From assembly GCA_025965475.1 (NCBI GenBank), contig JAOPWV010000070.1, forward strand, positions 1 to 35,542: a stretch of DNA of 35,542 nucleotides, given 5' to 3'. Origin of the DNA: Frankiales bacterium (lineage in GTDB: Bacteria; Actinomycetota; Actinomycetes; Mycobacteriales; SCTD01). A model generated the notes under the pieces. It was given only the letters and a program-made list of their open reading frames with translations. It had not been told where the DNA came from and did not search any database. Each line of letters opens with the position of its first letter. Within the stretch, counting starts at the first letter, position 1. Positions 9,101 to 33,842 of this stretch are shown here, in pieces. The translations under genes and the position numbers were made by a program.

Positions 9101-9177
9101 AACCCGCTCTCGCCCCCTGGGCGGCCGCGGTGTCTGATCAGGACAGGTCTCCGCACGTCGAGGGAAGGAACCAACAG

Positions 9178-19539: not shown

Positions 19540-20250
19540 TCAGGCGCCGGCGATCCCGCCGGGAGGCGCGACAGGGACCGCCGCGTCGTCGAAGTGCTCC
19601 AGGGCGACCTGCCGTGACCAGGTCACGTGCTCACGCATGAGAGTCTCGGCCAGGTCACCGTCGCGGTCGCGGAGGGCGTCCAGGATCGCCCGGTGCTGCC
19701 GGTTCGCCGTGCCGGACTGTCGGGACGGGTACGCGTAGCGGGACCGGTACGTGACCGTGAACGCGAGCACCTGGCTCGTGATCGTCTGCAGGAACTGGCT
19801 GCCCGTCGCCGCGCTGATGCCGACGTGGAACGCGAGATCGGCCTGCGCCTGCTCGATGGCGGTACCCCGCGTCCCGATCCGGCGGAGCCGGGCGTACGCC
19901 TCCTCGAGCTGGGCGAGGTGCGCGTCCGTCAGGGTCTCGGCGGCGGTGCGGGCGGCGTAGGACTCGATGACGGCGCGAAGGGAGTAGATCTGGGCGACGT
20001 CGCGCGCGGTGATCTCGCGGACCGTCGCGCCCCGGTTGGGGGTGAGGTCGACCAGCCCCTCCCCCTGGAGGATGAACATCGCCTCCCGGATCGGGGTACG
20101 GCTGATGCCCAGCTGCTCGGCAAGGAGCCGCTCGGGCATCGCCTCGCCCGGCTTGAGGCGACCGGCGAGGATGGCCTCCCGCAGGACGCGCGCGGCGCCC
20201 TCGCTGGTCCGGGTGGCCATGGGTATGGGCTCGGGGCCCAAGAGGTCCAT
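19540..20250 (-). CDS. GntR-family (FCD) regulator, probable repressor of the hydroxypyridine locus
   Basis: This 236-residue regulator has an N-terminal winged HTH (about residues 14-80, with ERLLAEQLGISRTPIREAMFILQGEGLV) and an FCD effector domain (about 85-215). The metal/ligand residues expected in FCD proteins are present: Asp138 and His142 (DLAFH), His186 (QHRAI) and His208 (REHV). Family members usually bind short palindromes built around GTATAC or GTnnnAC and are released by carboxylate effectors. Two identical GTATAC-containing sites lie in the divergent promoter region 1.8-2.0 kb away, and this is the only regulator between the MFS gene and the operon. The ATG at 20250 is used; ATG 20220 is an alternative. 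Confidence 0.92.
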   Translation of the reverse strand: MDLLGPEPIPMATRTSEGAARVLREAILAGRLKPGEAMPERLLAEQLGISRTPIREAMFILQGEGLVDLTPNRGATVREITARDVAQIYSLRAVIESYAARTAAETLTDAHLAQLEEAYARLRRIGTRGTAIEQAQADLAFHVGISAATGSQFLQTITSQVLAFTVTYRSRYAYPSRQSGTANRQHRAILDALRDRDGDLAETLMREHVTWSRQVALEHFDDAAVPVAPPGGIAGA

Positions 20251-20451: not shown

Positions 20452-21864
20452 TCAGCGCCTACCGGCCGGGACGTTGTCCGCGGTGGGCCCGGTGCGGGCG
20501 CCGGGGATGGCGACCACCGGCGGCTCGAGGTCGTCGCCGAAGTTGTGCATGTCCCAGTTGCTGGCGTCGAGGCCCGCGATCTCGGCCTCCTCGGTCACCC
20601 GCAGGCCACCGAACCGCTCGAAGAACAGGCACATGATCAGGCAGGGGACGCCCGCGACCAGCATCGTCGCGACGATGCCGGCCAGCTGCCACCACGGCGT
20701 GATCGTGGCGTGGCCGAGGGCGTACTCGCCCTTGAGGCCCGGGTAGCCGCCGGTCTTCGTCCCCCACTGCAGGAAGCCGGTCAGCAGGGCACCGGCGACG
20801 CCCGGGCCGAGGGCCAGCGGGATGACCTTGGGCTCGTCGATCCGGACGCGGCGCAGCAGGGCTGCCGTGCCCAGCGAGACGATCGGGCCGAGGGCGCCGA
20901 CGATCAGGCACTTCACCGGGTTGCCGATGTCGAACAGCGTCCCGCCCATCACCACGCCGGCGATCGGCCCGAGCAACGCCCAGTTCGCCTCGCGACGGCG
21001 GTAGGCGATGATCGTGCCCACGGTGCCGCCGCCGAGCAGCGCGGCGAACAGGTTCATGATGACCATGCCGAGCCCGCTCTGGGTCATCGAGACGCCGAAG
21101 TAGCCGGTGCCCGGGATGACGTAGCCGCTTCCGATGGTGATGAAGGGCAGCGCGAACAGGATCAGCAGCACACCTGCGCCGACGAGCCCGAGGTTGTGCG
21201 GGACGGGCTTGATGCCGGATTCGTGGTCACGGATGGCGCCGAGACGCGGGCCGACCCGCCAGGCGAGCACGAGCACCCACGTGCCGGCGAAGATGTACAG
21301 CGGGAAGATGCCGTCGAAGTCGTGCGTACCGCGGTTGGTCAGCGGGGAGAGCGAGCCCCAGCACAGGTAGCCGACCAGCGGCGAGAGCACCAGGCCGATC
21401 ACGAGCGACATGATGTACAGCGGCAGGGCCTTGATCCGCTCGACGACCCCGGTGTGGATCAGGGCCATGGTCGCCATCGTGAAGGTCACGAAGAAGACGA
21501 GGAAGATCTGCAGTACGTCGGCCTCGGGCAGCACCTTCGGGTCGATGGTGATGGCCGTGTTCGCGACGAACTGGCCGCCGATCCACCAGTCCTTGAAGGC
21601 CTGCCGCAGCGGGTGGGGGACCCCGAAGGCCGTGTTGAACTGCCACTGCCAGATGGCGTAACCGCAGATCAGCGTGCCGAGGCCGCCGATCATCGCGGCC
21701 GAGATCTTCTGGATCATCGTGTCCAGGACGTTGCGGCGGCGTACCAGGCCCATGTCCATCAGCGCGAGCCCGAGGACGACGAGCAGAACGGCCACTGCGC
21801 CGAGCGTGTTGATGAAGGTCACCAGCATGTTTGCGGTGGTGACCTGTTCCGGGAACGTTGGCAT
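20452..21864 (-). CDS. Amt/Mep/Rh-family permease lacking the twin pore histidines
   Basis: This is a 470-residue membrane protein with about 11 helices. Amt landmarks include GLVRRRNVLDTM (39-50; cf. GLIRGKNVL of AmtB), HDFDG (181-185; cf. LDFAGG), IKPVPHNL (218-225; cf. KPHNL), the repeat ending RIDEPKVI (341-348; cf. RVDDPCDV), and the cytosolic tail GLRVTEEAEIAGLD (420-433; cf. GLRVPEEQEREGLD). Both histidines that line the AmtB pore are missing. His168 aligns with Tyr190 (PLYIFAG), and His318 falls in PLALGPGVAG (349-358), where there is no His. Transport of ammonium by the standard route is therefore doubtful. AGGAGG precedes the ATG at 21864. It is divergent from the hydroxypyridine operon under an identical operator, suggesting a role in uptake of the N-heterocycle or handling of its nitrogen. 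Confidence 0.8.
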   Translation of the reverse strand: MPTFPEQVTTANMLVTFINTLGAVAVLLVVLGLALMDMGLVRRRNVLDTMIQKISAAMIGGLGTLICGYAIWQWQFNTAFGVPHPLRQAFKDWWIGGQFVANTAITIDPKVLPEADVLQIFLVFFVTFTMATMALIHTGVVERIKALPLYIMSLVIGLVLSPLVGYLCWGSLSPLTNRGTHDFDGIFPLYIFAGTWVLVLAWRVGPRLGAIRDHESGIKPVPHNLGLVGAGVLLILFALPFITIGSGYVIPGTGYFGVSMTQSGLGMVIMNLFAALLGGGTVGTIIAYRRREANWALLGPIAGVVMGGTLFDIGNPVKCLIVGALGPIVSLGTAALLRRVRIDEPKVIPLALGPGVAGALLTGFLQWGTKTGGYPGLKGEYALGHATITPWWQLAGIVATMLVAGVPCLIMCLFFERFGGLRVTEEAEIAGLDASNWDMHNFGDDLEPPVVAIPGARTGPTADNVPAGRR

Positions 21865-22017: not shown

Positions 22018-22046
22018 AAGGTATACACGTATGCCCCTGTCCGCAA
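22018..22046 (-). promoter_or_regulatory. Amt-like gene promoter with operator copy 1
   Basis: On the minus strand, TTGCGG (22046-22041), a 17-base spacer and TACCTT (22023-22018) form a plausible promoter. The 15-base site GGTATACACGTATGC (plus-strand 22020-22034) overlaps the -10 and half the spacer, the position expected for a repressor. It is identical to the site at 22273-22287. The core holds GTATAC and the half-site pair ATAC-AC-GTAT, typical of FCD-type GntR operators. Confidence 0.55.
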
Positions 22047-22251: not shown

Positions 22252-22287
22252 TAGACACGGCGATCGGGTATCGGTATACACGTATGC
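22252..22287 (+). promoter_or_regulatory. catabolic operon promoter with operator copy 2
   Basis: TAGACA (22252-22257), a 17-base spacer and TATACA (22275-22280) form a good sigma-70-like promoter; the first hexamer matches TTGACA at five of six positions. GGTATACACGTATGC (22273-22287) covers the -10. Repressor binding would block polymerase directly. The start codon of the first gene lies 44 bases past the site. Confidence 0.6.
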
Positions 22288-22330: not shown

Positions 22331-23029
22331 GTGGTCGATGCTCAAACCGCTTCGGTCTACGACCGCGCCGGCTTCGGGCGCCCTGTGCCGAGGGGGCAGC
22401 GCCCGGCGGTTCTCGTCGTCGACTTCACCTACGGGTTCACCGACCCGGCGTACCCCACGGGCTCCGACATGTCCCCGCAGGTGCTGGCCACGACCAGGCT
22501 GCTCGCGGTTGCCCGCAGCAAGGGCCTGCCGGTCATCTTCACGACGATCGCGTACGACGCGGGCCAGCTCCGCACGCTCACCTGGCTGCGCAAGGCGCCA
22601 GGGATGGCCGCCCTCGTCCTGGGCGGCCGGCTCGTCGAGGTGGATGATCGGCTGGACCGGCGGGAGGAGGAGACGGTGCTGGTGAAGACCGGCGCATCCG
22701 CCTTCTTCGGTACGCCGCTGTCCTCGCAGCTCGCCGCCGCGCAGGTCGACACCCTTGTCGTCACCGGAGCCACCACGAGCGGCTGCGTCCGGGCCAGCGT
22801 CGTCGACGCGGTGCAGAACGGCTACCCCACCCTCGTCCCCCGTGACTGCGTCGCCGACCGGGCCCGGGCCCCGCACGACGCAAGCCTGTTCGACATGAAC
22901 GAGAAGTACGCGGACGTCATCGCCCTCGACGAGGTTCTCTCCTACCTGCAGTCCGTACCGGCTCGTCCGAACGATCCCCAGTTCTCGCCCCACTCCACGA
23001 TCACGTCCCAGGCGGAGGCCCAGGCATGA
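22331..23029 (+). CDS. nicF: isochorismatase-family amidohydrolase, probable maleamate amidohydrolase (NicF-like)
   Basis: This is a 232-residue cysteine hydrolase of the isochorismatase fold. The catalytic triad is visible: Asp31 (VVDFTYGF), Lys119 (LVKTGASAF) and Cys152 (TTSGCVRAS), with the cis-peptide region before the cysteine (VTGATTSGC). In this operon, next to NicD-, NicE- and NicX-like genes, the expected reaction is maleamate + water to maleate + ammonia. N-carbamoylsarcosine amidase-like activity on another amide is an alternative. It starts at GTG 22331, with GCAGGGG upstream. It is the first gene of the operon and overlaps the next by four bases. Confidence 0.85.
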   Translation: MVDAQTASVYDRAGFGRPVPRGQRPAVLVVDFTYGFTDPAYPTGSDMSPQVLATTRLLAVARSKGLPVIFTTIAYDAGQLRTLTWLRKAPGMAALVLGGRLVEVDDRLDRREEETVLVKTGASAFFGTPLSSQLAAAQVDTLVVTGATTSGCVRASVVDAVQNGYPTLVPRDCVADRARAPHDASLFDMNEKYADVIALDEVLSYLQSVPARPNDPQFSPHSTITSQAEAQA

Positions 23030-24903
23030 CCCTGACCAGTTCGAACGACCCGGCGGACTCGTCCGCAGCGGCAGCCGGGCGGTTCATCAGCCCTTTCGCC
23101 GTGGAGACACCCGCGGGCGCTGAAGGCTGGGAGAGCATGTACCCCTACTACGCGCTGCTCAGCGAGGAGCGGCGCGAGCTGGACGACGGCAAGTTCTGGT
23201 TCTTCGACGGGATGCACAACCCGGAGCCGCTGTACCCGTTCGACACCATCATGACGGAGAACTGGTGGGTCGCCGCCAGCCAGATGTCGACCAGGGTCTG
23301 GCCGGTGCCCCCGGCCGGCGGTATCGACCACCGCATCATCAACGGCTACCTGTACATCAGCCCGAACGCCGTGACCGACCCGGTGGAGATCGGCCGCCGC
23401 GCCGAGTTGTTCGGCGTGCGGGCAGGGCACTACTTCCAGAACTGGGACGAGATCTACGACCAGTGGGTCACGAAGGCCACCGACTGCATCGACCGCCTCA
23501 AGGCGATCCAGTTCGCCCCGCTGCCGGACACCGAGCCGGAGAGCAGCGTCTTCGAGCACCGCGGCCTGTACTCCAGCTACCAGCTGCTGACGACGTACGG
23601 CGAACTGCTGAACAACCTGTTCGAGATGGGCTCGTACCACTTCGAGATGCTCAACCTCGGGTACGGCGCCTACCTCACGTTCCGTGAGTTCTGCCAGGCC
23701 GCGTTCCCGGGCATCAGCGACCAGACCATCGCGAGCATGGTGTCGGGCATCGACATCCTGCTGTTCCGGCCGGACGACGAGGTGCGCGGCCTCGCGAAGC
23801 TCGCGGTCGAGTTGGACCTGGCCGAGCTCATCCTCCCGGAGAACACTCCCGAGGCGACCCTGACGGCCATCGCCGGGCACGGCAACGGCGCCAAGTGGCT
23901 CGCCGCCTTCGAGGTGGCGAAGGACCCGTGGTTCTGGTTCTCGACCGGCGCCGGCTACACGCACTCGGACCGCGCCTGGATCGACGACCTGCGCCTGCCC
24001 TTCACCGCGATGCGCGGCTACATCCAGGGCCTGCAGAACGGCGAGGACATCCGCCGGCCGCTCGACGCGATTCTCGCCGAGCGCGTGCGGGTGACCGACG
24101 AGTACCGCTCGTACCTGCCCACCGAGGACGACCGGGACTCCTTCGACGGCCTGGTCGAGCTGGCCCGCAAGGTGTTCCCGTTCGTGGAGAACCACAACTT
24201 CTACATCGAGCACTGGCACCACTCGGTGTTCTGGTCGAAGGTGCGCGAACTCGGCGACGTGTTCGTCGCGCACAACTTCCTCGACGACCGCGAGGACATC
24301 TTCTACCTGCACCGCAACGAGATCTACTCCGCGCTGTACGACCTCAACATCGGCTGGGCGACCGGCACCGAGGCGCGCGGCGAGACCTACTGGCGTCCCG
24401 AGGTGGAGCGCCGCAGGCGCATCCGGGACGTCCTCAAGCAGTGGGCACCGCAGCCGGCGCTCGGTGTGCCGCCGGAGTTCATCACCGAGCCGCTGACCGT
24501 CATGCTCTGGGGCATCACCCAGGAGACCGTGCAGGAATGGCTCGGGGCCGGCGGAGAGGACGGCGGCGACGGTGAACTGCGGGGCGTGGCCGCCTCTGCC
24601 GGTAAGGCCACCGGCCGCGCCCGTGTCATCACCGACCCGGAGCAGCTGCACGAGGTGGAGGACGGCGACATCCTCGTCTGCCGCATCACGGCGCCGAGCT
24701 GGGCGCCGGTGTTCTCGCGCCTGTCGGCCGCCGTCTCCGACGTCGGCGGCATCATGGCCCACACCGCCATCGTCTGCCGTGAGTACGGCCTGCCCGCCGT
24801 CGTGGGCACCGGTTTCGCCACCGTCACCATCCGCACCGGCCAGCTCATCGAGGTCGACGGCAACCGCGGCACCGTCCGGATCCTCGAGGAGAACGCGCAG
24901 TGA
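23026..24903 (+). CDS. PEP-utilising phosphohistidine protein, phenylphosphate-synthase subunit-1-like
   Basis: This is a 625-residue protein. Its C-terminal ~90 residues are the PEP-utilisers mobile domain: GDILVCRITAPSWAPVF, then GGIMAHTAIVCREYGLPAVVGTG with phosphorylatable His579, then GQLIEVDGNRGTV. The N-terminal 530 residues, tryptophan- and tyrosine-rich, are unlike the PEP/pyruvate barrel, and no such barrel is present. Size (about 70 kDa) and layout match the larger subunit of phenylphosphate synthase, which carries a phosphohistidine near residue 569 and phosphorylates phenol; the ATP-grasp half is the next gene. I infer that it accepts phosphate from the partner and transfers it to the ring hydroxyl of a hydroxypyridine. 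A PEP-utilising protein is reported as needed for 3-hydroxypyridine dehydrogenase activity in Ensifer adhaerens HP1 (recalled). Confidence 0.85.
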   Translation: MTLTSSNDPADSSAAAAGRFISPFAVETPAGAEGWESMYPYYALLSEERRELDDGKFWFFDGMHNPEPLYPFDTIMTENWWVAASQMSTRVWPVPPAGGIDHRIINGYLYISPNAVTDPVEIGRRAELFGVRAGHYFQNWDEIYDQWVTKATDCIDRLKAIQFAPLPDTEPESSVFEHRGLYSSYQLLTTYGELLNNLFEMGSYHFEMLNLGYGAYLTFREFCQAAFPGISDQTIASMVSGIDILLFRPDDEVRGLAKLAVELDLAELILPENTPEATLTAIAGHGNGAKWLAAFEVAKDPWFWFSTGAGYTHSDRAWIDDLRLPFTAMRGYIQGLQNGEDIRRPLDAILAERVRVTDEYRSYLPTEDDRDSFDGLVELARKVFPFVENHNFYIEHWHHSVFWSKVRELGDVFVAHNFLDDREDIFYLHRNEIYSALYDLNIGWATGTEARGETYWRPEVERRRRIRDVLKQWAPQPALGVPPEFITEPLTVMLWGITQETVQEWLGAGGEDGGDGELRGVAASAGKATGRARVITDPEQLHEVEDGDILVCRITAPSWAPVFSRLSAAVSDVGGIMAHTAIVCREYGLPAVVGTGFATVTIRTGQLIEVDGNRGTVRILEENAQ

Positions 24904-25997
24904 ACTCCCCCTCTCCCTACGTCCTGTGGCTCGACGACCCGAGCGCGCCCGAGAGCAAGCTGCTCGGCGGCAAGTTCGGCAGCCTCGCGCAGATGACCGA
25001 GGCGGGCTTCGCCGTACCGCCTGGCTTCGGTGTCACGACGACGGCGTACCGCCACTTCCTGAAGGCGGCCGGCCTGGCCGACCGGGCCCGTGAGGTGCGG
25101 GCCCGCGCCGTGACCGCGGACCTCGCCGAGGTGCAGGCGCTCAGCGCCGAGTTCACCACCGCCGTCGGGGCCGCGCCGCTGCCGGCCGACCTGGAGACGG
25201 CCGTCCGCGAGGCGTACGCGGAACTCGAGAGCCGTACCGGACAGGCCGGGCTCCCGGTCGCCGTCCGCTCGAGCGGGGAGTCCGAGGACCTGGCCGGCGC
25301 CAGCTTTGCGGGCCAGTACGACACCTTCCTGTGGATCAAGGGTGCGGAGGAGGTGCTGCAGCACGTGCGCCGCTGCTGGGCCGGCATGTTCGGCGCGGCG
25401 GTGCTGACCTACCGGCCTGAGGGCGACGCGTCGATCACGACGGCCGACCACGGCATCTGCGTCGGCATCCAGCAGATGGTCGAGGCCCGCGCCGCCGGCG
25501 TCATGTTCACGCTCGACCCCGTCACCGGTGACCGTTCCAAGGTCGTCATCGAGGGCTGCTGGGGTCTCGGTGAGGGCGTCGTCAGCGGCGGCATCACCCC
25601 GAGCCGCTACGTCGTGGACAAGGTGACCTTCGAGATCCTGCGCCGCGAGGTCGCCGTGCAGGAGACGCAGTTCCGCTTCGACCCGGCGATCTCGGCGGTC
25701 GGTCTCGTCCCGGTCGAGGCGGACCGCAGGGAGATGACCTGCCTGGAGGACGTCCACATCGACGCGCTGGCCCGCCTGGCCAAGCGCATCGAGCAGCACC
25801 GGGGCGCGCCGCAGGACATCGAATGGGCAGTCAGCGAATCCGGCGACGTGCATGTGCTCCAGGTGCGGCCGGAGACGGTGTGGAGCCGGCGTGCGGCCAC
25901 CCAGGTCATCGGGGAGCGCAAGTCCGCCGTCGACCACGTCCTGGCCCGGTTCGCCGGTGTCGGGCTGACGCAGCGCGCGGGCAGTCCTCAGTCGTGA
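24900..25997 (+). CDS. PEP synthase/pyruvate phosphate dikinase N-terminal (ATP-grasp) protein
   Basis: This 365-residue protein consists only of the ATP-binding domain of PEP synthase/PPDK. Motifs in order: GGKFGSLAQMTEAGFAVPPGF (start of domain, 23-43), AVRSSGESEDLAGASFAGQYDTFL (121-144), QQMVEARAAGVMFTLDPVTGD (191-211), EGCWGLGEGVVSG (218-230), QDIEWA and LQVRPETVWS. It lacks the phosphohistidine and PEP domains, which are supplied or replaced by the preceding gene. The split matches the 40-kDa subunit of phenylphosphate synthase, which uses ATP to load phosphate on the partner histidine. GTG 24900 overlaps the upstream stop; GAGGAG lies eight bases before it. The 24-kDa CBS-domain third subunit of that enzyme is not encoded here. 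Confidence 0.88.
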   Translation: MNSPSPYVLWLDDPSAPESKLLGGKFGSLAQMTEAGFAVPPGFGVTTTAYRHFLKAAGLADRAREVRARAVTADLAEVQALSAEFTTAVGAAPLPADLETAVREAYAELESRTGQAGLPVAVRSSGESEDLAGASFAGQYDTFLWIKGAEEVLQHVRRCWAGMFGAAVLTYRPEGDASITTADHGICVGIQQMVEARAAGVMFTLDPVTGDRSKVVIEGCWGLGEGVVSGGITPSRYVVDKVTFEILRREVAVQETQFRFDPAISAVGLVPVEADRREMTCLEDVHIDALARLAKRIEQHRGAPQDIEWAVSESGDVHVLQVRPETVWSRRAATQVIGERKSAVDHVLARFAGVGLTQRAGSPQS

Positions 25998-26872
25998 AGG
26001 CGGCAGCGTTCGACTACCACCGGCCCGCGAGCGTCTCGGAGGCGGTGAGCTACCTCGACCAGTACGGCGGCACCGCCCGTGTCCTGGCGGGTGGGCAGAG
26101 CCTGGTGCCCATGCTCAACATGCGGCTGTGGCGGCCGGCCGCACTCATCGACATCAACGCGATCGAGGAGCTCGGCCAGGTGCGCCTGGACGGGGACAGC
26201 ACCGTTCTCGGTGCCCTGGTGCGGTACGCCCAGATCGAGCGTGGACCTGTCGTCGCCGAACGGCTGCCCCTGCTCGCCTACATCGTCCGCCACATCGGTG
26301 ACCGCCAGGTCCGCAACCGGGGCACCATCGGCGGCAGCCTCGTGCAGGGCGACCCGACGGGGGAGATGCCGCTGGCCTGCCTGGTCCTGGACGCGGTGGT
26401 GCACGTGACGGGTCCGGCGGGGACGCGTGAGATTCCCCTGGCCGACCTGTACGAGGGGTCCTACGCGACGGCTCTCGACCTCGAGGAGCTGCTGACCGAG
26501 ATCATCTTCCCGCGCAGCCCGCAGTATTTCGCGTTCGCCGAGTGCTGCCGGCGGCACAACGACTTCGCGGTCGTCAGCGCCGTCGCCACCGGCGACCGGG
26601 GACCGGACGGCCGCTGGTGCGACGTGCGCCTCGCGCTCGGCGGCGTGGCCGACACCCCCGTGCGCGCCGAACGGGCGGCTGAACTTCTGTCCGGCACCGA
26701 GCTGTCCGACGCCGACATCCGCGACGCGGCGGAGGCGGCCATGCAGGTCGTCGACCCGCCCAGCGACGTGCGTGCGTCGGCGGAGTACCGGCGCCACCTG
26801 GTTCCGGTGTACGTGGAGAAGGTGCTGACCGGCCTGCGGGCCGCAGCAACCGACGAGAGGGAACAGCGGTGA
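25994..26872 (+). CDS. molybdenum hydroxylase FAD-binding (medium) subunit
   Basis: This is the 292-residue FAD subunit of a xanthine-dehydrogenase-family hydroxylase (CoxM/NdhF type). The FAD pyrophosphate loops LAGGQSLVPMLNMR (31-44) and VRNRGTIGGSLVQGDPTGEMP (106-126) are intact, and a C-terminal CO-dehydrogenase flavoprotein domain follows (about 180-285). It would take electrons from the 2Fe-2S subunit (30946-31455). The GTG overlaps the stop of the ATP-grasp gene (GTGA) with no strong RBS of its own, so it is probably translated by coupling. It is separated from its small and large partner subunits by 4.1 kb containing the SRPBCC, HD and ring-cleavage genes. Confidence 0.93.
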   Translation: MKAAAFDYHRPASVSEAVSYLDQYGGTARVLAGGQSLVPMLNMRLWRPAALIDINAIEELGQVRLDGDSTVLGALVRYAQIERGPVVAERLPLLAYIVRHIGDRQVRNRGTIGGSLVQGDPTGEMPLACLVLDAVVHVTGPAGTREIPLADLYEGSYATALDLEELLTEIIFPRSPQYFAFAECCRRHNDFAVVSAVATGDRGPDGRWCDVRLALGGVADTPVRAERAAELLSGTELSDADIRDAAEAAMQVVDPPSDVRASAEYRRHLVPVYVEKVLTGLRAAATDEREQR

Positions 26873-27543
26873 AGCTCCACGAGGAGTTCGACGTCGCCAA
26901 GCCGGTGGCGGCGATCTGGACGTTCTTCGAGCAGCCGGAGAAGGTCGCGCAGTGCGTGCCCGGCGTCGAACAGCTCACGGTGGTCGACGCGGACAACGTC
27001 AACGTCCGGCTGACCCAGAGCATCGGCCCGATGACGGCCACCTTCGACGCGAAGGTGAAGATCGTCGAGCGGGTGTCCGAGGAACTGATGCGGTTCACCG
27101 CAACCGGGCGCAGCGTCCGGGGGGCCATGGGCAACGTCCGGGCCTCGAACACGGTGCACCTGACCGCGGTGGACGGCGGGACCCGGGTGCGGGTCGAGGG
27201 TGACGTCACCCTGGCGGGTGCCCTCGGCAGCGTCGGGCAGAAGGTCGTCGCGAGCCAGGCCAGCAAGGTGACGGCGCAGTTCGCCCGCAACCTCGAGACG
27301 GTGCTCAACGGCGGTCAGGTCGAGGACGCCTCGCGTGAGCGAGCGGGAACCAAGCGTGCCCCGTCGGCGCCTGCGTCAGCGGCGCCGGCCGCTCCGTCCA
27401 CGACGGCCCCGGCACAGTCCCTGCCGCCGGTGTCCGAGCTCCCTCCCCTCGACCCGTGGCCGCGGGCTGCGGCAGTGCTGAGCGCGGTCTCGGTCGTCCT
27501 CAGCCTCCTGGCCCTGCTGCGCTCCCGCCGGGCCGCACGATGA
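26869..27543 (+). CDS. SRPBCC (CoxG-like) protein with C-terminal membrane anchor
   Basis: This is a 224-residue protein. Residues 1-150 form a CoxG-type SRPBCC domain (MKLHEEFDVAKPVAAIWTFFEQPEKVAQCVPGVEQL, then ASQASKVTAQFARNLETVL). A proline/alanine-rich linker (about 158-195) and one transmembrane helix (about 200-217, AAVLSAVSVVLSLLALL) ending in RSRRAAR follow. CoxG recruits CO dehydrogenase to the membrane. In some N-heterocycle hydroxylases an SRPBCC domain is fused to a subunit, but here it is separate, as described for the four-component 3-hydroxypyridine dehydrogenase of Ensifer. The likely role is tethering the Mo hydroxylase to the respiratory chain. GTG 26869 overlaps the FAD-subunit stop. 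Confidence 0.9.
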   Translation: MKLHEEFDVAKPVAAIWTFFEQPEKVAQCVPGVEQLTVVDADNVNVRLTQSIGPMTATFDAKVKIVERVSEELMRFTATGRSVRGAMGNVRASNTVHLTAVDGGTRVRVEGDVTLAGALGSVGQKVVASQASKVTAQFARNLETVLNGGQVEDASRERAGTKRAPSAPASAAPAAPSTTAPAQSLPPVSELPPLDPWPRAAAVLSAVSVVLSLLALLRSRRAAR

Positions 27544-28169
27544 CGGTGGCTCTGCCGTGGACGGCGCCCGAGGTGGCCCTCGGGACCGACCTCGAGCGTG
27601 CCGCCGCGCAGTGGATCGAGCCGTACAACCAGCAGCAGCACCTGATGCGGACGCGTGACTGGCTCGTGCACCTGTCGCCGGGCGCCAACGTCGAGATGCG
27701 CCTCGCGGCGATGACCCACGACATCGAGCGGATGTTCCCGGGCGGTCCGGTGCTGGACCTGGCCTCGCGGGACTGGGACGACCCGTTCTACCTGTTCGCG
27801 CACGGCACGCGCTCCGCGGAGATCGTCGCCGACTGGATGGGCGAGCTGGAGCCGGCGTGCGTGGCCGCCGACCGCAAGGAGGTACGCCGGCTCGTCGCCC
27901 TGCACGAGGTGGGCGGGCTGCGCGGCGCGGACGAGATCCAGGCAGCCGACTCGCTCTCCTTCCTCGAGAGCCTGGCGGATGTCGCGCGCGACTGGGTCCT
28001 GTCCGGCGCTTGCTCGCGCGAGAAGGCCGCTGCCAAGCTGTACTACTCGGTCGACCGGATCCGCATACCCGCTGCCGAAGAACCCGCGGCGCAACTTCTC
28101 GAGTGGGCGCTCGACCGCCTGCCCGCCGCTGCCCCCGCCGCCGACCGCGACCGGGTGGCGGCGCCATGA
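27540..28169 (+). CDS. HD-domain metal-dependent phosphohydrolase-like protein
   Basis: This 209-residue protein is not a pyridine enzyme that I recognise. Its residue pattern fits an HD domain: His34 (HLMRTR) or His44, then His60-Asp61 in AAMTHDIERMF, His88 in AHGTRSAEIVADWM, His122 in VALHEVGG, and Asp137 in IQAADSLSFLESL. This H...HD...H...H...D order is that of HD phosphohydrolases, including two-metal types. The ATG overlaps the SRPBCC stop (ATGA), in the middle of the operon. Given the phosphotransferase pair two genes upstream, I infer that it removes phosphate from a phosphorylated dihydroxypyridine or corrects a dead-end phosphoester. A nucleotide-clearing or regulatory role is the alternative. 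Confidence 0.75.
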   Translation: MTVALPWTAPEVALGTDLERAAAQWIEPYNQQQHLMRTRDWLVHLSPGANVEMRLAAMTHDIERMFPGGPVLDLASRDWDDPFYLFAHGTRSAEIVADWMGELEPACVAADRKEVRRLVALHEVGGLRGADEIQAADSLSFLESLADVARDWVLSGACSREKAAAKLYYSVDRIRIPAAEEPAAQLLEWALDRLPAAAPAADRDRVAAP

Positions 28170-28197: not shown

Positions 28198-28947
28198 ATG
28201 AACCGACGTATCGGCCTTATCGTGCCGAGCTCCAACACCACGATGGAGACGGAGATCCCGGAGCTCCTGCGGCGTTACGCCGAGGAGCACGCCGACTTCA
28301 CGGCGACCTTCCATGCCAGCCGCGCTCGGCTGCACACCGTCGACGCCGAGTCGCTGGCCAAGATGGTCGACGACGGCGAGCGCTGCGCGGCCGAAGTCGG
28401 TGACGCGCAGGTCGACGTGGTGGGCTATGCGTGCCTCGTCGCGGTCATGGCGCAGGGCAACGGCGCGCACGTCGGCATCGAGGAGCGGCTGCAGAAGGTC
28501 CTGTCCGAGAGCCGGTCGGCCGAGGCGAAGATGACGAGCAGTGCCGGTGCCCTGGTGCGCACCCTGCTCGAGCTCGGCCTGCGCCGGGTCGCCATCGTCG
28601 CGCCGTACATGCCGCAGCTGACGAGCCTCGTGGTCGGCTACCTGGAGGATGCCGGCATCAGTGTCGCCGACAGCGTCAGCCTGTCGGTCGCCGACAACTG
28701 CGAGGTCGGCCGGCTCGACCCGGAGAACCTGCTCGACCACGTCAAGCGCCTCGACACCAGCGAGGTCGACGGGGTCGTCCTGTCGGCCTGCGTGCAGATG
28801 CCGTCGCTGCCCGCCGTGCAGCGGGCCCAGGACACCCTGGGTCTGCCCGTGGTCACGGCCGCCACGGCGACCACCCGCGAGATCCTGCTCGCGCTGGGCC
28901 TCGAGCCGCGCGTCCGCGACGCCGGCGCTGCTCTGGCGGGTACGTGA
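28198..28947 (+). CDS. nicE: maleate cis-trans isomerase (Asp/Glu racemase superfamily), NicE/MaiA-like
   Basis: This is a 249-residue enzyme converting maleate to fumarate, the last step of the pathway. The maleate-isomerase N-terminus RIGLIVPSSNTTMETEIP (4-21) is diagnostic. The two catalytic cysteines are Cys79 (VVGYACLVAVM) and Cys198 (VVLSACVQMPSL), close to positions 76-82 and 194-200 in characterised family members. The ATG at 28198 follows AGGGA ten bases upstream; GTG 28189 is in frame but too close to that RBS. It lies 28 bp after the HD gene and overlaps the next gene by four bases. Arylmalonate decarboxylase-type activity is a family alternative made unlikely by the neighbours. 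Confidence 0.9.
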   Translation: MNRRIGLIVPSSNTTMETEIPELLRRYAEEHADFTATFHASRARLHTVDAESLAKMVDDGERCAAEVGDAQVDVVGYACLVAVMAQGNGAHVGIEERLQKVLSESRSAEAKMTSSAGALVRTLLELGLRRVAIVAPYMPQLTSLVVGYLEDAGISVADSVSLSVADNCEVGRLDPENLLDHVKRLDTSEVDGVVLSACVQMPSLPAVQRAQDTLGLPVVTAATATTREILLALGLEPRVRDAGAALAGT

Positions 28948-29807
28948 GCATCGCGCTCAGCGGTCGCGACGTGACCGTGCAGGCCAACGGCCTGCGCCAC
29001 CACGTCCTCACCTACGGCCAGGCAGGCGGTCCTGACCTCCTGGTGCTGCCGGGCATCACGAGCCCGGCGGCAACGGCCGACTTCCTTGGTGTGCTCTTCG
29101 CGGAGATGGGTTACCGGGTCACCGTGCCGGACCTGCGCGGGCGCGGCGGGACGGACCGGCCGCCGACCGGCAGCTACCGGCTGACCGACTACGCCGCCGA
29201 CGTGGCCGCGCTGGTGGCCGCGCTCGAGCTGCGCACCCCCACCGTCCTCGGGCACTCGCTGGGGGCTCGCATCGCCGCGGCATACGCCGTTCTGCACGCG
29301 CCGGACGACCACGGACAGCTGATCCTCGTCGACCCGCCCACCTCGGGCCCGGGCCGCGGTCCGTACCCGACCTCGCGCGACGCGTTCCTCGAGCAGCTGC
29401 AGCAGGCCCAGCGGGGGACCCACGCCGACGAGGTGCGCCGGTTCTATCCGACGTGGCCCGAGCGGGAACTGCAGATCCGGGCCGACGTACTCGCGACCTG
29501 CGACGAGACAGCCGTGCTCGAAACGCACGCGGGCTTCGAGTCGGAGGACTTCTTCCCGTACTGGCGCAAGCTGACCGGACCCGTCGTCCTGGTCCGCGGT
29601 GGCGACAGTCCTGTCGTCCCGCCGGCTGCTGCCGAGGACCTGCACCGCGAGCAGCCGGGATTCGACATCGTCACGGTTCCCGGCGCGGGCCACATGGTCC
29701 CGTGGGACAACCTGCCCGGGTTTCTCGACGCCGTACGCCCGTACCTGCGGTCCCCCGGGGGGCCGCTCCCGTTTTCGCCGACCTCCACCCCCGACGGCCA
29801 GGAGTAG
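28944..29807 (+). CDS. nicD: alpha/beta hydrolase, probable N-formylmaleamate deformylase (NicD-like)
   Basis: This is a 287-residue alpha/beta hydrolase: oxyanion loop LPGITSP (35-41), VPDLRGRGGTDRP (61-73), nucleophile elbow LGHSLGAR with Ser105, Asp130 in ILVDPP and His250 in GAGHMVPWDN. The acid 25 residues after the serine is the arrangement reported for P. putida NicD (Ser101, Asp125, His245, recalled), rather than the usual late Asp. The reaction would be N-formylmaleamate + water to maleamate + formate. GTG 28944 overlaps the maleate isomerase stop. The next gene encodes the dioxygenase that makes its substrate, three bases downstream. Confidence 0.87.
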   Translation: MSIALSGRDVTVQANGLRHHVLTYGQAGGPDLLVLPGITSPAATADFLGVLFAEMGYRVTVPDLRGRGGTDRPPTGSYRLTDYAADVAALVAALELRTPTVLGHSLGARIAAAYAVLHAPDDHGQLILVDPPTSGPGRGPYPTSRDAFLEQLQQAQRGTHADEVRRFYPTWPERELQIRADVLATCDETAVLETHAGFESEDFFPYWRKLTGPVVLVRGGDSPVVPPAAAEDLHREQPGFDIVTVPGAGHMVPWDNLPGFLDAVRPYLRSPGGPLPFSPTSTPDGQE

Positions 29808-29810
29808 TTC

Positions 29811-30845
29811 ATGGACCAGAGCCAGCTCAACGAGATGTGCCGCCGCCAGCTCGAGCTCAGCGCCGTGCACGAGGGCGAGAGTGTGGTCGTGCTGTCGCAG
29901 GGCCACGACCGCGCGGACTACGCGGACGCGTTCCTCTACGCCGCCCGCAGTCTGGGCGCGCAGGCGTACCACATGCGCCTGTCCACGCCGCAGTCCTCGA
30001 CCGGTGCGTGGGCGGTCGGCGAGTCCGAGCTGGCCAGCAACCCGTACGCCGTCGAGGCGCTCAAGCAGGCCGACATGCTGGTGGACCTCGCCTTTTTGCT
30101 GTTCAGCAAGGAGCAGTTCGCGATCCAGGGCGCCGGCACCCGGATCCTCACGGCGGTCGAGCCTGCCCCGCTGCTGGCCAAGCTGTTCCCGACGCGCGAG
30201 CTGCGCGACCGCGTCGAGGTCGGGGGCGAGCTGCTGGCCAGGGCCCAGAACATGCGGATCACCAGCCCGCACGGCACCGACGTCACCTACCGGCTCGGCG
30301 TGTACCCGACGATCACCGAGTACGGCTACACCGACCAGCCGGGCCGCTGGGACCACTGGCCGGCGGCATTCGTGTTCACGGGTGCCGCCGACGACGGCGT
30401 GGACGGCCAGATCGTCATCGCGCCGGGCGACGTCCTGCTGCCGTTCAACACCTACGTGAACACGCCGATCACCCTCACGATCGAGCAGGGTTTCATCACC
30501 GACATCAAGGGTGACCTCGACGCCGACCTGCTGCACTCGTACATCAAGAGTTTCGACGACCCGCGCGGCTACGGCATGTCGCACGTGGGCTGGGGTCTGG
30601 ACCACCGGGCCAACTGGCACGGGCTCACGCAGTTCCCGGGCGGCATGGGCATGGAGCTGCGCTCCTTCTACGGAAACGTCATGTTCTCCATCGGGCCGAA
30701 CAACGAGCTCGGTGGACCCAACGACACGCCCTGCCACTTCGACATCCCGATGCGCGGCGCGAGCCTGTTCCTCGACGACGAGCCGATCGTCGTGGACGGC
30801 GACCTCGCCGTGAAGGAGATGCAGCGGACCGACCGCCGCAGCTGA
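29811..30845 (+). CDS. nicX: 2,5-dihydroxypyridine 5,6-dioxygenase (NicX-like)
   Basis: This 344-residue protein belongs to the M29-aminopeptidase-like family that includes NicX, the Fe(II) ring-opening dioxygenase making N-formylmaleamate. The putative iron ligands are His258 (GMSHVGWG), His309 and Asp311 (PCHFD). Their spacing (51 and 2) is close to the His265/His318/Asp320 set reported for P. putida NicX (recalled). Upstream landmarks are VTYRLGVYPTITEYG and the PGG loop (FPGGMGMELRSFYGN). AGGAG lies six bases before the ATG. A leucyl-aminopeptidase annotation is the common misnomer. Together with NicD-, NicE- and NicF-like neighbours it fixes 2,5-dihydroxypyridine as the central intermediate. 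Confidence 0.9.
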   Translation: MDQSQLNEMCRRQLELSAVHEGESVVVLSQGHDRADYADAFLYAARSLGAQAYHMRLSTPQSSTGAWAVGESELASNPYAVEALKQADMLVDLAFLLFSKEQFAIQGAGTRILTAVEPAPLLAKLFPTRELRDRVEVGGELLARAQNMRITSPHGTDVTYRLGVYPTITEYGYTDQPGRWDHWPAAFVFTGAADDGVDGQIVIAPGDVLLPFNTYVNTPITLTIEQGFITDIKGDLDADLLHSYIKSFDDPRGYGMSHVGWGLDHRANWHGLTQFPGGMGMELRSFYGNVMFSIGPNNELGGPNDTPCHFDIPMRGASLFLDDEPIVVDGDLAVKEMQRTDRRS

Positions 30846-30945: not shown

Positions 30946-31455
30946 ATGAGCGCCCTCGAGCCCGAGGTGGACATCACCGTGACCGTCAACGGTGAGATCG
31001 TGACCGCCCGCGCACCTGCCCGGCTCCATGCGGCGGACTTCCTGCGTCAGCGGCTCGGCCTGACCGGGACGCACATCGGCTGCGAGCAGGGTGTCTGCGG
31101 CATGTGCACCGTCCTCGTCGACGGCGAGGCGGTGAAGTCCTGCCTGATGCTGGCCGTACAGCTCGACGGCAGGCAGGTGCAGACGGTGGAGTCGCTGGCC
31201 GAGGACGACCGCCTCAACCCGCTTCAGCAGGCGTTCAAGGACGAGCACGCGCTGCAGTGCGGGTTCTGCACCCCCGGTTTCCTCATGACGGCGACGGCGC
31301 TCGCGCGGCGGGGGGAGCGGCTGTCCCGCAACGAGATCCGCGAGGAGATCGCCGGCGTGCTGTGCCGGTGCACCGGCTACGACAACATCGTCAAGGCGAT
31401 CGAGAAGCACCTCGAGGAGACCGCCGACGCGGATGCGGCGCGGGTGGCCCGATGA
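30946..31455 (+). CDS. molybdenum hydroxylase 2Fe-2S (small) subunit
   Basis: This is a 169-residue CoxS/XdhC-type iron-sulfur subunit with two clusters. The plant-ferredoxin-type site is Cys46, Cys51, Cys54 (CEQGVCGMC) and Cys66. The helical site is Cys105, Cys108 (CGFCTPG), Cys140 and Cys142 (CRCTGY). It passes electrons from the Mo centre to the FAD subunit. The ATG at 30946 is nine bases after GGAGG; a GTG at 30940 is only three bases from it. The 100 bp before it show no clear promoter or terminator, so it is probably part of the same transcript. It overlaps the large subunit gene by four bases. Confidence 0.95.
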   Translation: MSALEPEVDITVTVNGEIVTARAPARLHAADFLRQRLGLTGTHIGCEQGVCGMCTVLVDGEAVKSCLMLAVQLDGRQVQTVESLAEDDRLNPLQQAFKDEHALQCGFCTPGFLMTATALARRGERLSRNEIREEIAGVLCRCTGYDNIVKAIEKHLEETADADAARVAR

Positions 31456-33842
31456 CCCACATCCTGGAGCGGCCGACCGGTCCGCTCGGCGGGTCCCACG
31501 ACGACCGCACCGACGCGATAGGCAGCAACGTCCCGCGCAAGGAGGACGACCGCCTGCTGCGCGGCGACGGGCGTTTCACCGACGACGTCGAGCCGCCGCA
31601 CGTCCTGCACATGGCGGTCGGGCGCTGCCCGTTCCCGCATGCGCAGATCCTCGGCATCGACACGTCCGCGGCGCTGGAGGTCGAGGGGGTCAAGCACATC
31701 CTCATCGGCTCCGACGTTCGTGCGGCCACCGAGCCGCTGACGGTCCTGCGGCCGGTGCCGGGCGCCCCCGATCTGCACTACTACGCGCTGGCCCAGGACG
31801 TCGCGACGTACGAGGGACAGCCCGTCGTCAGCGTGGTGGCGACGAGCCGGCACATCGCCGAGGACGCGCTCGAGCTGATCGACATCGACTACGAGCCGCT
31901 GCCCCACGTGGTGGACGTGATCGCCGCGCTGGAGCCGGACGCCCCCGTCATCCACCCGCACGTGCTCGGGTCCAACCTGCTCGTCTCGAACAGGGACGAG
32001 TCCGGTGACCCGGAGGCCCGGATGGCCGAGGCGGACGTCGTCGTCGCTGGCCGGTTCCGCATCAACCGCGTGACCGGGCTGCCCATGGAGACCCGCGGCA
32101 TCGTCGTCGAGTGGCGCCCGGGCGCGCGCGAGCTCACCGTGCACACGTCGACGCAGGTCCCGCACCTGGTGCGCAAGCAGCTCGCCGAGTCGCTGCGGCT
32201 GGACGAGGGCGAGATCCGCGCGGTGGCCTCCGACGTCGGCGGCGGCTTCGGGCTCAAGCTCGGTATCTACCCCGAGGACGTGCTGGCCTGCCTGCATGCG
32301 ATGGCCCTGCGCCGGCCGGTCAAGTGGACCGAGGACCGGTCCGAGCACTTCCGCGCCACGACGCACGCCCGCGAGGCCGTGCACGACTTCCGGATCGGCG
32401 CGACGGCCGACGGTCGGATGACGGCGATGACGAACGTCTACGCCACCGACCTCGGCGGGTGGAACTCCTCGTTCGGCTCGGCCCAGCTGTCCAGCGTCGT
32501 CTTCAACGGGCCGTACAAGATCGAGGACGGCTCGGTCGAGCGCCGGGTGATCGTGACCAACAAGACGCCGATCGGGGCGTACCGCGGGTACGGCCAGCCG
32601 GAAGTCAACTTCGCGTACGAGCGGCTGGTCGACCAGCTGGCCCGCCGGCTCGACATGGACCCGCTCGAGCTGCGCGCCATGAACATGGTGCGCCCGACCG
32701 ACATGCCGTGGCGCAACCCCAGCGGCGCCGTCTACGACAGCGGTGACTACGAGCTGTGCCTGCGGATGGCGGGCGACGCGGTCGGCTACGACGAACACCG
32801 CAAGGCCGTCCGCGGACCCCGTCCGGACGGGCGGTACGTCGGCATCGGCCTGTCGTCCTTCGTCGAGCGGACCGGCTACGCGAGCTCGCGATTCCTGGCC
32901 CGCCGTGGGTCGCAGTTCGGCGCGCACGAGAGCGTCACGTTGCGGGCCAACCGGTCCGGCGGCGTCGACCTGTACACCGGCGTCTCGACCATGGGACAGA
33001 GCAGCGAGACGGCGTTCGCCCAGGTGACGAGCAGCGTGCTCGGCATCGCGTACGACAAGGTGAGCGTGCACGCCGGCGACACGGCCGCGTCGCCGTTGAA
33101 CACCGGTGCCTTCGCGTCCCGCACGATGATCGCGGCGGCGGGGGCGCTCAAGGACGCGGCGACGCAGCTGCGCGACAAGACACTGCGCCTGGCGGCCTGG
33201 CGCCTCGAGACCGAGGTCGGCACGCTGGAGGTCGCCGGCGACCGGGTGCAGCACCGGTCCGACCCGGACCGGTACGTCCTGCTGTCCGAGGTCTTCTCGA
33301 TGGCGATCCTCGGACAGGGGCTGCCGCCGGACGAGGAGCCGGGCCTGGAGGCGACGGCGCACTTCGAGCCGCCGGACGCGGCGTACTCGTTCGGCACGGC
33401 CGCGGCAGTCGTCTCCGTCGATCCGAACACCGGCGACTTCGACGTCGAGCGCTTCGTCCTGGTCCACGACTGCGGCACCGTCGTGAACCCGAAGGTGGTC
33501 GACGGGCAGGTCCGTGGCGCGCTGGTCCAGGGGCTCGGCGCGGCGCTGTCCGAGGAGCTGCGGTACGACGCCGACAGCGGGCAGCTGGTCAACGGCACGA
33601 TGATGGACTACTTCGCGCCGAGCGCCGCCGACGTGCCTCCCATCGAGCTGCTGCACACCGAGGTGCCGTCACCGGTCACCACGTTCGGGGTCCGCGGGGT
33701 CGGCGAGGTGGGCACGATCCCGCCGGGCGCCGCGGTGGCCAACGCGATCTGCGACGCGCTTGCGGACTTCGGCGTGGAGCTGTCGACGCTGCCCATCACG
33801 CCCGAAAGCGTCTGGAAGGCGCTTCGGGAGCAGCGCGCCTGA
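31452..33842 (+). CDS. molybdenum hydroxylase molybdopterin (large) subunit
   Basis: This is a 796-residue catalytic subunit of the xanthine dehydrogenase/CO dehydrogenase family, binding the molybdopterin cytosine dinucleotide cofactor. Motifs: GSNVPRKEDDRLLRGDGRFTDDV at the N-terminus, DVGGGFGLKLGIYPEDV, TPIGAYRGYGQPE, STMGQSSETAFAQV, and GVRGVGEVGTIPPGAAVANAI with catalytic Glu752. The CO-dehydrogenase active-site loop with selenyl-cysteine ligand (VAYRCSFR) is replaced by GAYRGYGQ, so this is a hydroxylase, not a CO dehydrogenase. The inferred reaction is water-derived hydroxylation at the ring carbon next to nitrogen, giving 2,5-dihydroxypyridine or its phosphoester. No cofactor-maturation gene (XdhC type) lies in the window. 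Confidence 0.95.
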   Translation: MTHILERPTGPLGGSHDDRTDAIGSNVPRKEDDRLLRGDGRFTDDVEPPHVLHMAVGRCPFPHAQILGIDTSAALEVEGVKHILIGSDVRAATEPLTVLRPVPGAPDLHYYALAQDVATYEGQPVVSVVATSRHIAEDALELIDIDYEPLPHVVDVIAALEPDAPVIHPHVLGSNLLVSNRDESGDPEARMAEADVVVAGRFRINRVTGLPMETRGIVVEWRPGARELTVHTSTQVPHLVRKQLAESLRLDEGEIRAVASDVGGGFGLKLGIYPEDVLACLHAMALRRPVKWTEDRSEHFRATTHAREAVHDFRIGATADGRMTAMTNVYATDLGGWNSSFGSAQLSSVVFNGPYKIEDGSVERRVIVTNKTPIGAYRGYGQPEVNFAYERLVDQLARRLDMDPLELRAMNMVRPTDMPWRNPSGAVYDSGDYELCLRMAGDAVGYDEHRKAVRGPRPDGRYVGIGLSSFVERTGYASSRFLARRGSQFGAHESVTLRANRSGGVDLYTGVSTMGQSSETAFAQVTSSVLGIAYDKVSVHAGDTAASPLNTGAFASRTMIAAAGALKDAATQLRDKTLRLAAWRLETEVGTLEVAGDRVQHRSDPDRYVLLSEVFSMAILGQGLPPDEEPGLEATAHFEPPDAAYSFGTAAAVVSVDPNTGDFDVERFVLVHDCGTVVNPKVVDGQVRGALVQGLGAALSEELRYDADSGQLVNGTMMDYFAPSAADVPPIELLHTEVPSPVTTFGVRGVGEVGTIPPGAAVANAICDALADFGVELSTLPITPESVWKALREQRA

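Follow-up and report, generated by a model that had tools for sequence, protein, structure and literature searches.

A two-component dikinase gene pair beside a molybdenum hydroxylase and nic-type genes in a Frankiales bacterium: a proposed kinase-hydroxylase-phosphatase route for a hydroxypyridine

Contig JAOPWV010000070.1 of a soil actinobacterium of the Frankiales (assembly GCA_025965475.1) carries two adjacent genes, here called H and I, which encode the components of a predicted two-component dikinase. The stretch analyzed, 35,542 nucleotides in length (positions 1 to 35,542), is referred to as the window. The reading frames of H and I share 4 bp, and their codon-position GC is coding-like:

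23026-24903, + strand: H subunit gene, 625 amino acids (aa), ATG start (Pfam, alignment, AlphaFold2 (AF2) model with fold search)
24900-25997, + strand: I subunit gene, 365 aa, GTG start (PPDK_N, phosphoenolpyruvate (PEP)-synthase type ATP-grasp)

The sole Pfam domain of H is the PEP-utilizers mobile domain (PF00391, residues 545-615, E 9.8e-22), and the sole domain of I is PPDK_N (PF01326, residues 20-339, E 6e-93); the PEP-utilizing TIM barrel is missing from both proteins. H is composed of an acceptor-binding domain (residues about 20-515) and a C-terminal swivel domain with the phosphohistidine His579, the catalytic residue, located in the motif SDVGGIMAH, which fits T/SxxGGxxxH with methionine two positions before the histidine. 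The AF2 model of H (predicted local distance difference test score, pLDDT, 88.8) finds rifampin phosphotransferase (RPH) as its closest fold: the six best PDB matches are all RPH-Lm entries, aligned over about 600-620 columns (5fbt: Foldseek E 1.3e-18, 621 columns, 18% identity). The initial annotation, made from the sequence alone, had described a large swivel protein with His579 and no barrel, followed with a 4-bp overlap by an ATP-grasp protein, and coordinates, strand and Pfam domains agree with it. It was also right that a third subunit is missing: a PpsC query (Azoarcus pps cluster) had no match in the 35 closest loci, and no CBS third subunit was found among the window proteins scanned beside the H/I pair. 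This lack, presented as notable, is however ordinary, because CreHI and HpeHI are themselves two-component enzymes (PMC12167813).

Relatives of H were collected by scanning a collection with one genome per species (84,980 species), from which the best 80 loci of 372 relatives were taken. H is 61-85% identical in 35 loci (L020-L054), the next locus standing at 55%; with such relatives, H/I is not a chance pair of open reading frames (ORFs). By sequence comparison, the pair is a member of the two-component small-molecule dikinase family comprising PpsAB, CreHI, and HpeHI. H shows full-length homology (45-49%) to H-type proteins of cre, hpe, and pps clusters on plasmids, including 46.5% to PpsA of the Azoarcus pps cluster. 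These plasmid matches comprise Rhodococcus loci with genes for a P450, I, H, an SDR, a ferredoxin, an HD protein, and an aldehyde dehydrogenase together, one Rhizobium and one Rhodococcus locus encoding a biotin-dependent carboxylase, a HAD phosphatase, and a CoA ligase, and an Azoarcus locus with genes for the CBS third subunit and phenylphosphate carboxylase. The N-terminal domain of H is 46-47% identical to Pps, Cre, and Hpe proteins alike. The match to phenylphosphate synthase subunits proposed at the outset therefore holds as full-length homology, but not as a special closeness to Pps, from which the window pair is set apart in its own clade.

Phylogenetic position was assessed with quick trees (H, 94 rows; I, 86 rows) in which the Shimodaira-Hasegawa-like approximate likelihood ratio test (SH-aLRT) was the only support measure and several long branches were flagged; H alignment A4 contains 54 of 89 stop-free rows, and the partial H of L054 is in no tree. 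In the H tree, 37 rows labelled by molybdenum (Mo)-hydroxylase context lie on one side of a branch with support 76, and together with H of genome G054 they form a clade of 38 (SH-aLRT 99). The Cre rows are a clade (support 100), the Pps rows and two unlabelled rows share a starred clade that does not include the window, and the Hpe rows need three label changes. On these trees, the window H sits in a clade separate from the Cre, Hpe, and Pps rows; in the I tree, the 35 labelled rows likewise lie on one side of a branch (SH-aLRT 88, not starred). Across 92 of the 94 H rows, 48 residues including H579 are invariant, two distant rows (contig C34 of the window's own genome and the first copy of L066) being omitted from the count. 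The nearest other group in the H tree consists of five loci with UbiD-like genes (support 89, not starred). In these loci (L055-L059), H/I pairs lie beside the UbiD-like genes, UbiX is present in three of the five, and H has histidine at positions 65 and 398.

Membership in other families was considered and rejected. PEP synthase or pyruvate phosphate dikinase (PPDK) is ruled out by the missing TIM barrel, and RPH by the presence of two genes instead of one chain and by a phmmer match limited to the swivel domain, so that the pair lies outside both of the placements that would have spoken against the first interpretation. Nor is it a phenylphosphate synthase proper (PpsABC): it lacks both the CBS subunit and a linked UbiD-type carboxylase and lies outside the Pps rows. 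Viral contigs gave three pattern matches, none of them a relative of the pair. A second H/I-type pair is encoded in the same genome on contig C34 (L107 7157-9990); it is 29-31% identical to the H family, carries the motif CDGGGTLSH, adjoins an IclR regulator near an FAD-binding monooxygenase-type gene, and represents a distant two-component dikinase. On haloarchaeal plasmids (L018, L019), H/I pairs at 39-41% identity have genes for a Rieske dioxygenase, a metallophosphoesterase, and a NUDIX protein as neighbors, which may point to another pathway of kinase, oxidation, and phosphatase steps.

H proteins of the clade differ from the others in the domain predicted to bind the acceptor. Ten positions are clade-specific (at least 95% in the clade, at most 10% elsewhere), namely 65, 81, 151, 154, 157, 201, 311, 328, 331, and 398. 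All of them are in the N-terminal domain, and the expectation that this part should differ for a pyridinol thus stands in outline, with every change located between residues 65 and 398. Residue 65 is asparagine in the clade, tryptophan in Cre, mostly phenylalanine in Hpe, tyrosine in Pps, and histidine in the UbiD-linked loci; residue 311 is tyrosine in the clade, phenylalanine in Cre, methionine in Hpe, tryptophan in Pps, and phenylalanine in the UbiD-linked loci; residue 398 is histidine in the clade, alanine (0.4) in Cre, phenylalanine in Hpe and Pps, and histidine in the UbiD-linked loci. N65, Y311, A328, and H398 stand where other clades conserve different residues, and from the alignment the ten positions look like substrate-reading positions. 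In the catalytic loop, the residue before the histidine is alanine in 33 of 37 clade rows and cysteine in 8 of 9 Hpe rows; in HpeH, changing this cysteine to alanine gave a higher turnover rate (PMC12167813).

The pair is embedded in an operon whose NicX and nic-type genes adjoin it, in agreement with the pyridinol-catabolic setting suggested by the initial annotation:

22331-23029, + strand: isochorismatase-family hydrolase, NicF (maleamate amidohydrolase)-like, 4-bp overlap with H (Pfam)
25994-26872, + strand: Mo-hydroxylase FAD subunit (Pfam)
26869-27543, + strand: CoxG/SRPBCC protein, separate SRPBCC component (Pfam)
27540-28169, + strand: HD-superfamily protein, 209 aa, proposed aryl-phosphate phosphatase (profile, AF2, fold)
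28198-28947, + strand: Asp/Glu racemase superfamily, maleate isomerase (NicE)-like, start ATG 28198 or GTG 28189 (Pfam)
28944-29807, + strand: alpha/beta hydrolase, NicD (N-formylmaleamate deformylase)-like (Pfam)
29811-30845, + strand: 2,5-dihydroxypyridine 5,6-dioxygenase NicX (PDB 7cn3, E 1.4e-89)
30946-31455, + strand: Mo-hydroxylase 2Fe-2S subunit, start GTG 30940 or ATG 30946 (domain scan)
31452-33842, + strand: Mo-hydroxylase molybdopterin subunit with AYRGYG loop and GVGE motif (Pfam, best PDB match 1t3q)

The best PDB match of the Mo subunit, 1t3q, is quinoline 2-oxidoreductase. Its best NCBIfam match is a CO dehydrogenase (CODH) "exception" model, below the cut-off, and CODH identity was rejected, the AYRGYG loop being without the CODH-type cysteine.

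The HD gene, located between CoxG and NicE, had been overlooked in the initial annotation. Its product has no Pfam match at E 0.001 (scanned as part of a longer ORF, 27456-28169), and the gene came to light on inspection of the remaining ORFs, because the CreD and HpeD queries were too distant to reach it. Among the 35 clade loci, the gene is present in all 29 in which the contig extends far enough to include its position, after CoxG or after Mo in most of them; in the remaining six (L021, L024, L043, L044, L049, L054), the contig ends before or inside that place. None of 53 other loci (L012-L019, L055-L099) contains it. In alignment A2, made up of the window protein and those from 22 of the 29 loci in which the gene occurs (omitted were L025, with a stop codon in the stretch, and the near copies L032, L034, L035, L037, L039, and L052), H34, H60-D61, H88, H122, and D137 are invariant in all 23 members; we take these residues to be the HD-superfamily metal-ligand pattern. 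At E of 1 or below, Pfam assigns HD to 8 of the 23 members (best 2.6e-4) and DUF4202 to 16 (best 1.2e-6), the window protein itself matching only DUF4202, weakly (0.074). Compared by profile (hhalign) with 42 HD proteins from clusters of the cre type, the family matches at E 1.2e-5 with the metal ligands in register, and a search of the family profile against PDB sequences returned chance-level matches alone (E 0.055 or worse). The AF2 model (pLDDT 91.3) aligns with 2pq7 (VIA-align Z 13.9, root-mean-square deviation 4.2, 155 aligned residues) and YpgQ (Z 13.0), and all 50 VIA rows listed are HD-superfamily proteins. According to alignment and model, the product of 27540-28169 is a divergent HD-superfamily protein with the all-helical HD fold, and it may well be a phosphatase.

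H genes of the clade co-occur with one Mo-hydroxylase operon (FAD, CoxG/SRPBCC, FeS, Mo), and most actinobacterial clade loci also carry 2,5-dihydroxypyridine ring-cleavage genes. H-I-FAD-CoxG is contiguous in 29 of the 35 clade loci; the six exceptions are due to a contig cut (L024, L044, L054), a NicE-like gene between H and I (L049), or two H genes (L050, L051). A Mo gene is found in 22 of the 35 loci and a NicX relative in 19, with many contigs ending early, and an isochorismatase gene lies immediately 5' of H-I in 25. The ring-cleavage genes are more variable: L045-L048 have no NicX, NicD, or NicF gene in the stretch examined, and the module is still together. H-I-FAD-CoxG-FeS-Mo is intact in L045, L046, and L048 with no ring-cleavage gene in that stretch, the sole nearby gene of this type in L047 is NicE-like, and in L042 the nic-like genes are on the opposite strand. 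A NicX relative is encoded at some place in each of the seven genomes behind L042-L048 (E at most 6.6e-76); at E 1e-75, such a relative occurs in 4 of 197 genomes of the window's class, a background other than that of the L042-L048 proteobacteria. In a set of 394 class genomes, three contain the Mo clade and three the HD family; these are the same three, each with an H relative, and 18 further class genomes have an H relative without the Mo clade or the HD family. In G054, one contig carries the Mo operon (GntR, FAD, CoxG, FeS, Mo) and another the genes for H, I, NicD, HD, and NicX, the last in two pieces, so linkage is lost and the gene set is kept.

Some loci are organized differently. On the short contig of L049, the gene inserted between H and I (1993-2721) belongs to the Asp/Glu racemase family. 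L050 (10001-15843) and L051 (10001-16832) each contain two H genes with an intact His motif, one I gene, and two NicX-like genes; a cobalamin-independent methionine synthase-like gene lies between the H genes of L051, and L050 has a similar-looking ORF.

Upstream of the operon, the following features were identified:

19540-20250, - strand: GntR/FCD regulator, divergent from the operon, conserved (domain scan, locus comparison)
20452-21864, - strand: ammonium transporter, divergent, conserved in many actinobacterial loci (domain scan, locus comparison)
22021-22034, no strand: palindrome GTATACACGTATGC, putative operator (motif search)
22274-22287, no strand: palindrome GTATACACGTATGC, putative operator (motif search)

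The palindrome, of the form GTATAC-NN-GTATGC, is present in two copies between the ammonium transporter gene and the operon. Of 34 clade loci examined, 21 have such a site upstream of the operon, and none of the loci has it at any other place. It is probably the operator of the divergent GntR/FCD regulator. Outside the conserved cluster, the window (9130-12832) also contains a run of three reading frames, for an SDR, an aldehyde dehydrogenase, and a protein with UbiD domains.

In gene content, the window resembles the 3hpd (3-hydroxypyridine) cluster of Ensifer adhaerens HP1, whose Mo-hydroxylase is HpdA. The four-part Mo-hydroxylase with separate SRPBCC protein, the kinase pair, and the 2,5-dihydroxypyridine dioxygenase are all together in the window. 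Wang et al. 2020 (10.1128/AEM.01313-20) reportedly describes HpdA as a four-component Mo-hydroxylase with a separate SRPBCC subunit, and the HP1 cluster reportedly includes a PEP-utilizing protein and a PPDK and yields 2,5-dihydroxypyridine as product; the abstract reportedly states that these two proteins are involved in HpdA activity. On this list of features, the window cluster is of the 3hpd type by gene content. The HpdA work has been cited with mention of a CoxG-like subunit (PMC11962113), and the 3hpd cluster occurs in Actinobacteria, Rubrobacteria, Thermoleophilia, and Proteobacteria (PMC10117386).

Kinase, hydroxylase, and HD genes are constant and ring-cleavage genes variable, which suggests that the three act in one connected pathway step. 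We consider it probable that a two-component pyridinol dikinase is followed by the Mo-hydroxylase, the HD phosphatase, and the nic gene products. I would bind ATP and phosphorylate His579 on the swivel domain of H, which would then pass the phosphate to a hydroxypyridine bound in the N-terminal domain (3-hydroxypyridine being the likeliest), with 3-pyridyl phosphate, AMP, and phosphate as products. This predicted route of the phosphate, from ATP to His579 by way of I and on to the ring hydroxyl, is drawn by analogy with HpeHI, CreHI, and PpsAB, which phosphorylate phenols by a His-relay mechanism (PMC12167813). The four-component Mo-hydroxylase (FAD, CoxG/SRPBCC, FeS, Mo) may act on the phosphate ester, oxidizing the ring para to the O-phosphate; O-phosphorylation would cut the electron donation of the oxygen and favor attack at C6. 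If the steps occur in this order, the HD protein would then remove the phosphate, and the oxidized, dephosphorylated product should be 2,5-dihydroxypyridine, because NicX follows. NicX, NicD, NicF, and NicE would carry this compound to fumarate and ammonia. Conversion of 3-hydroxypyridine to 2,5-dihydroxypyridine is documented in Agrobacterium sp. DW-1 (PMC6525221).

Several points weigh against this pathway. The choice of 3-hydroxypyridine as acceptor is read from the neighboring genes. The HD superfamily includes non-phosphatases as well, the Foldseek matches of the HD model have weak E values (best 0.036), and middling Z scores can arise by chance with helical folds. A comparison of the Mo subunit with just two outgroup rows gave 29 clade-specific polar positions and does not establish a phosphate-binding site. 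The H of G054 shows no more than 53% identity, and the Mo operon of that genome is on another contig. In Wang et al. 2020, HpdA is reportedly described as a dehydrogenase that acts on 3-hydroxypyridine itself. Resting cells of DW-1 gave 2,5-dihydroxypyridine as the only compound seen by high-performance liquid chromatography, and no phosphorylated intermediate, although the authors allow for intermediates with too fast turnover (PMC6525221).

These points leave room for other explanations. Phosphorylation by the dikinase might trap the substrate in the cell, with the phosphate taken off before hydroxylation and the Mo-enzyme using free 3-hydroxypyridine, as the reported description of HpdA would have it. 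Trapping has been offered as a rationale for HpeHI (PMC12167813); however, the kinase genes stay with the Mo-hydroxylase even where the ring-cleavage genes do not, and in the Hpe pathway the next enzyme takes the phosphorylated compound only (PMC9618137), which makes trapping unlikely. The pair could instead phosphorylate some other small molecule or control the Mo-hydroxylase. Its substrate is indeed predicted from context, and the abstract of Wang et al. 2020 reportedly goes no further than calling the two proteins involved in HpdA activity. Against it, characterized relatives with full-length H phosphorylate the pathway phenol (PMC12167813), and the H model matches RPH across both the acceptor and the swivel domains; we regard this option as quite unlikely.

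Two further alternatives concern the fate of the phosphate. H might pass it from the hydroxylated product to the next 3-hydroxypyridine, ATP serving to prime the cycle and the HD protein doing something else. In favor of this, HpeH by itself can use 4-phosphoacetophenone as phosphate donor for acetovanillone (PMC12167813), an exchange between phenol and phenylphosphate is catalyzed by the alpha subunit of phenylphosphate synthase (PMC6114531), and L050 and L051 combine two H copies, all with the His motif, with one I. A separate phosphatase is nevertheless the simpler reading, because the HD protein is conserved in every locus reaching its place, and such recycling appears very unlikely. The HD protein could also be an HD-domain oxygenase or another hydrolase, which would be compatible with the kinase part of the proposed pathway. 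The ligand set H..HD..H..H..D seen in the family is also that of dinuclear HD oxygenases, and cyanamide hydratase is among the VIA rows; on the other side, HD hydrolases and phosphohydrolases rank highest among the fold matches, and HD proteins with aligned ligands are also encoded in cre-type clusters, where the kinase is shared. To this option we assign a low but appreciable probability. The sequence of dikinase, Mo-hydroxylase, and HD phosphatase thus remains the account that we favor.

The window is not the first place where such a pair lies beside this Mo-enzyme, because the 3hpd cluster type is already known. As far as literature searches show, three elements are new: that the kinases form a clade apart, that the HD protein belongs to the module as a constant member, and that the whole can be read as kinase, hydroxylase, and phosphatase. 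No paper on hydroxypyridine phosphorylation was found in the openly licensed literature, which omits key papers in Applied and Environmental Microbiology (2020) and the Journal of Biological Chemistry (2016). We give about even chances to the more specific proposal that 3hpd-type clusters encode a dikinase, Mo-hydroxylase, and HD-phosphatase cassette in which the true substrate of the Mo-hydroxylase is an aryl phosphate and not 3-hydroxypyridine. This would explain the reported dependence of HpdA on the PEP-utilizing protein and the dikinase, and a published but unexplained dependence would become a question for purified proteins. An N-heteroaromatic ring would then be activated by temporary O-phosphorylation, and the enzyme would be the first Mo-hydroxylase known to us that acts on a phosphorylated ring. 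The pathway would also parallel the cre pathway, in which a P450 is the oxidant and the HD protein is another one. Phenol phosphorylation before oxidation or carboxylation is known from three pathways; a further kinase lineage, with a Mo-hydroxylase, an N-heterocycle, and its own HD protein, offers a clean comparison of one kinase design with several downstream chemistries. The Hpe papers call it unclear why bacteria pay for phenol phosphorylation (PMC12167813, PMC9618137).

Compared with characterized systems, the window pair shares with HpeHI, the hydroxyphenylethanone dikinase of Rhodococcus rhodochrous GD02, the two components, their sizes and domain split, the SxxGGxxxH motif, the RPH-like fold of H (published for HpeH; PMC12167813), and a phosphatase in the operon, whereas HpeHI feeds a biotin-dependent carboxylase and a HAD phosphatase and has another place in the tree (PMC12167813, PMC9618137). 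With PpsABC of Thauera and Azoarcus it has in common the subunit order, the sizes, and full-length homology of H and I; PpsABC differs in its third CBS subunit, in the UbiD-type phenylphosphate carboxylase of its cluster, and in belonging to an anaerobic phenol pathway, and in Desulfatiglans anilini the phenylphosphate synthase gamma gene lies elsewhere in the genome (PMC6114531). RPH-Lm has the same fold of acceptor and swivel domains, in contrast to its single chain with fused ATP-grasp and its antibiotic acceptor. CreHI of Corynebacterium glutamicum (with P450 CreJ and CreD) offers a similar combination of kinase, oxidation, and HD-superfamily protein, the last presumably CreD (by elimination), but its oxidant is a P450, its gene order is I-H, and the HD proteins of cre clusters are only distantly related to that of the window (profile E 1.2e-5).

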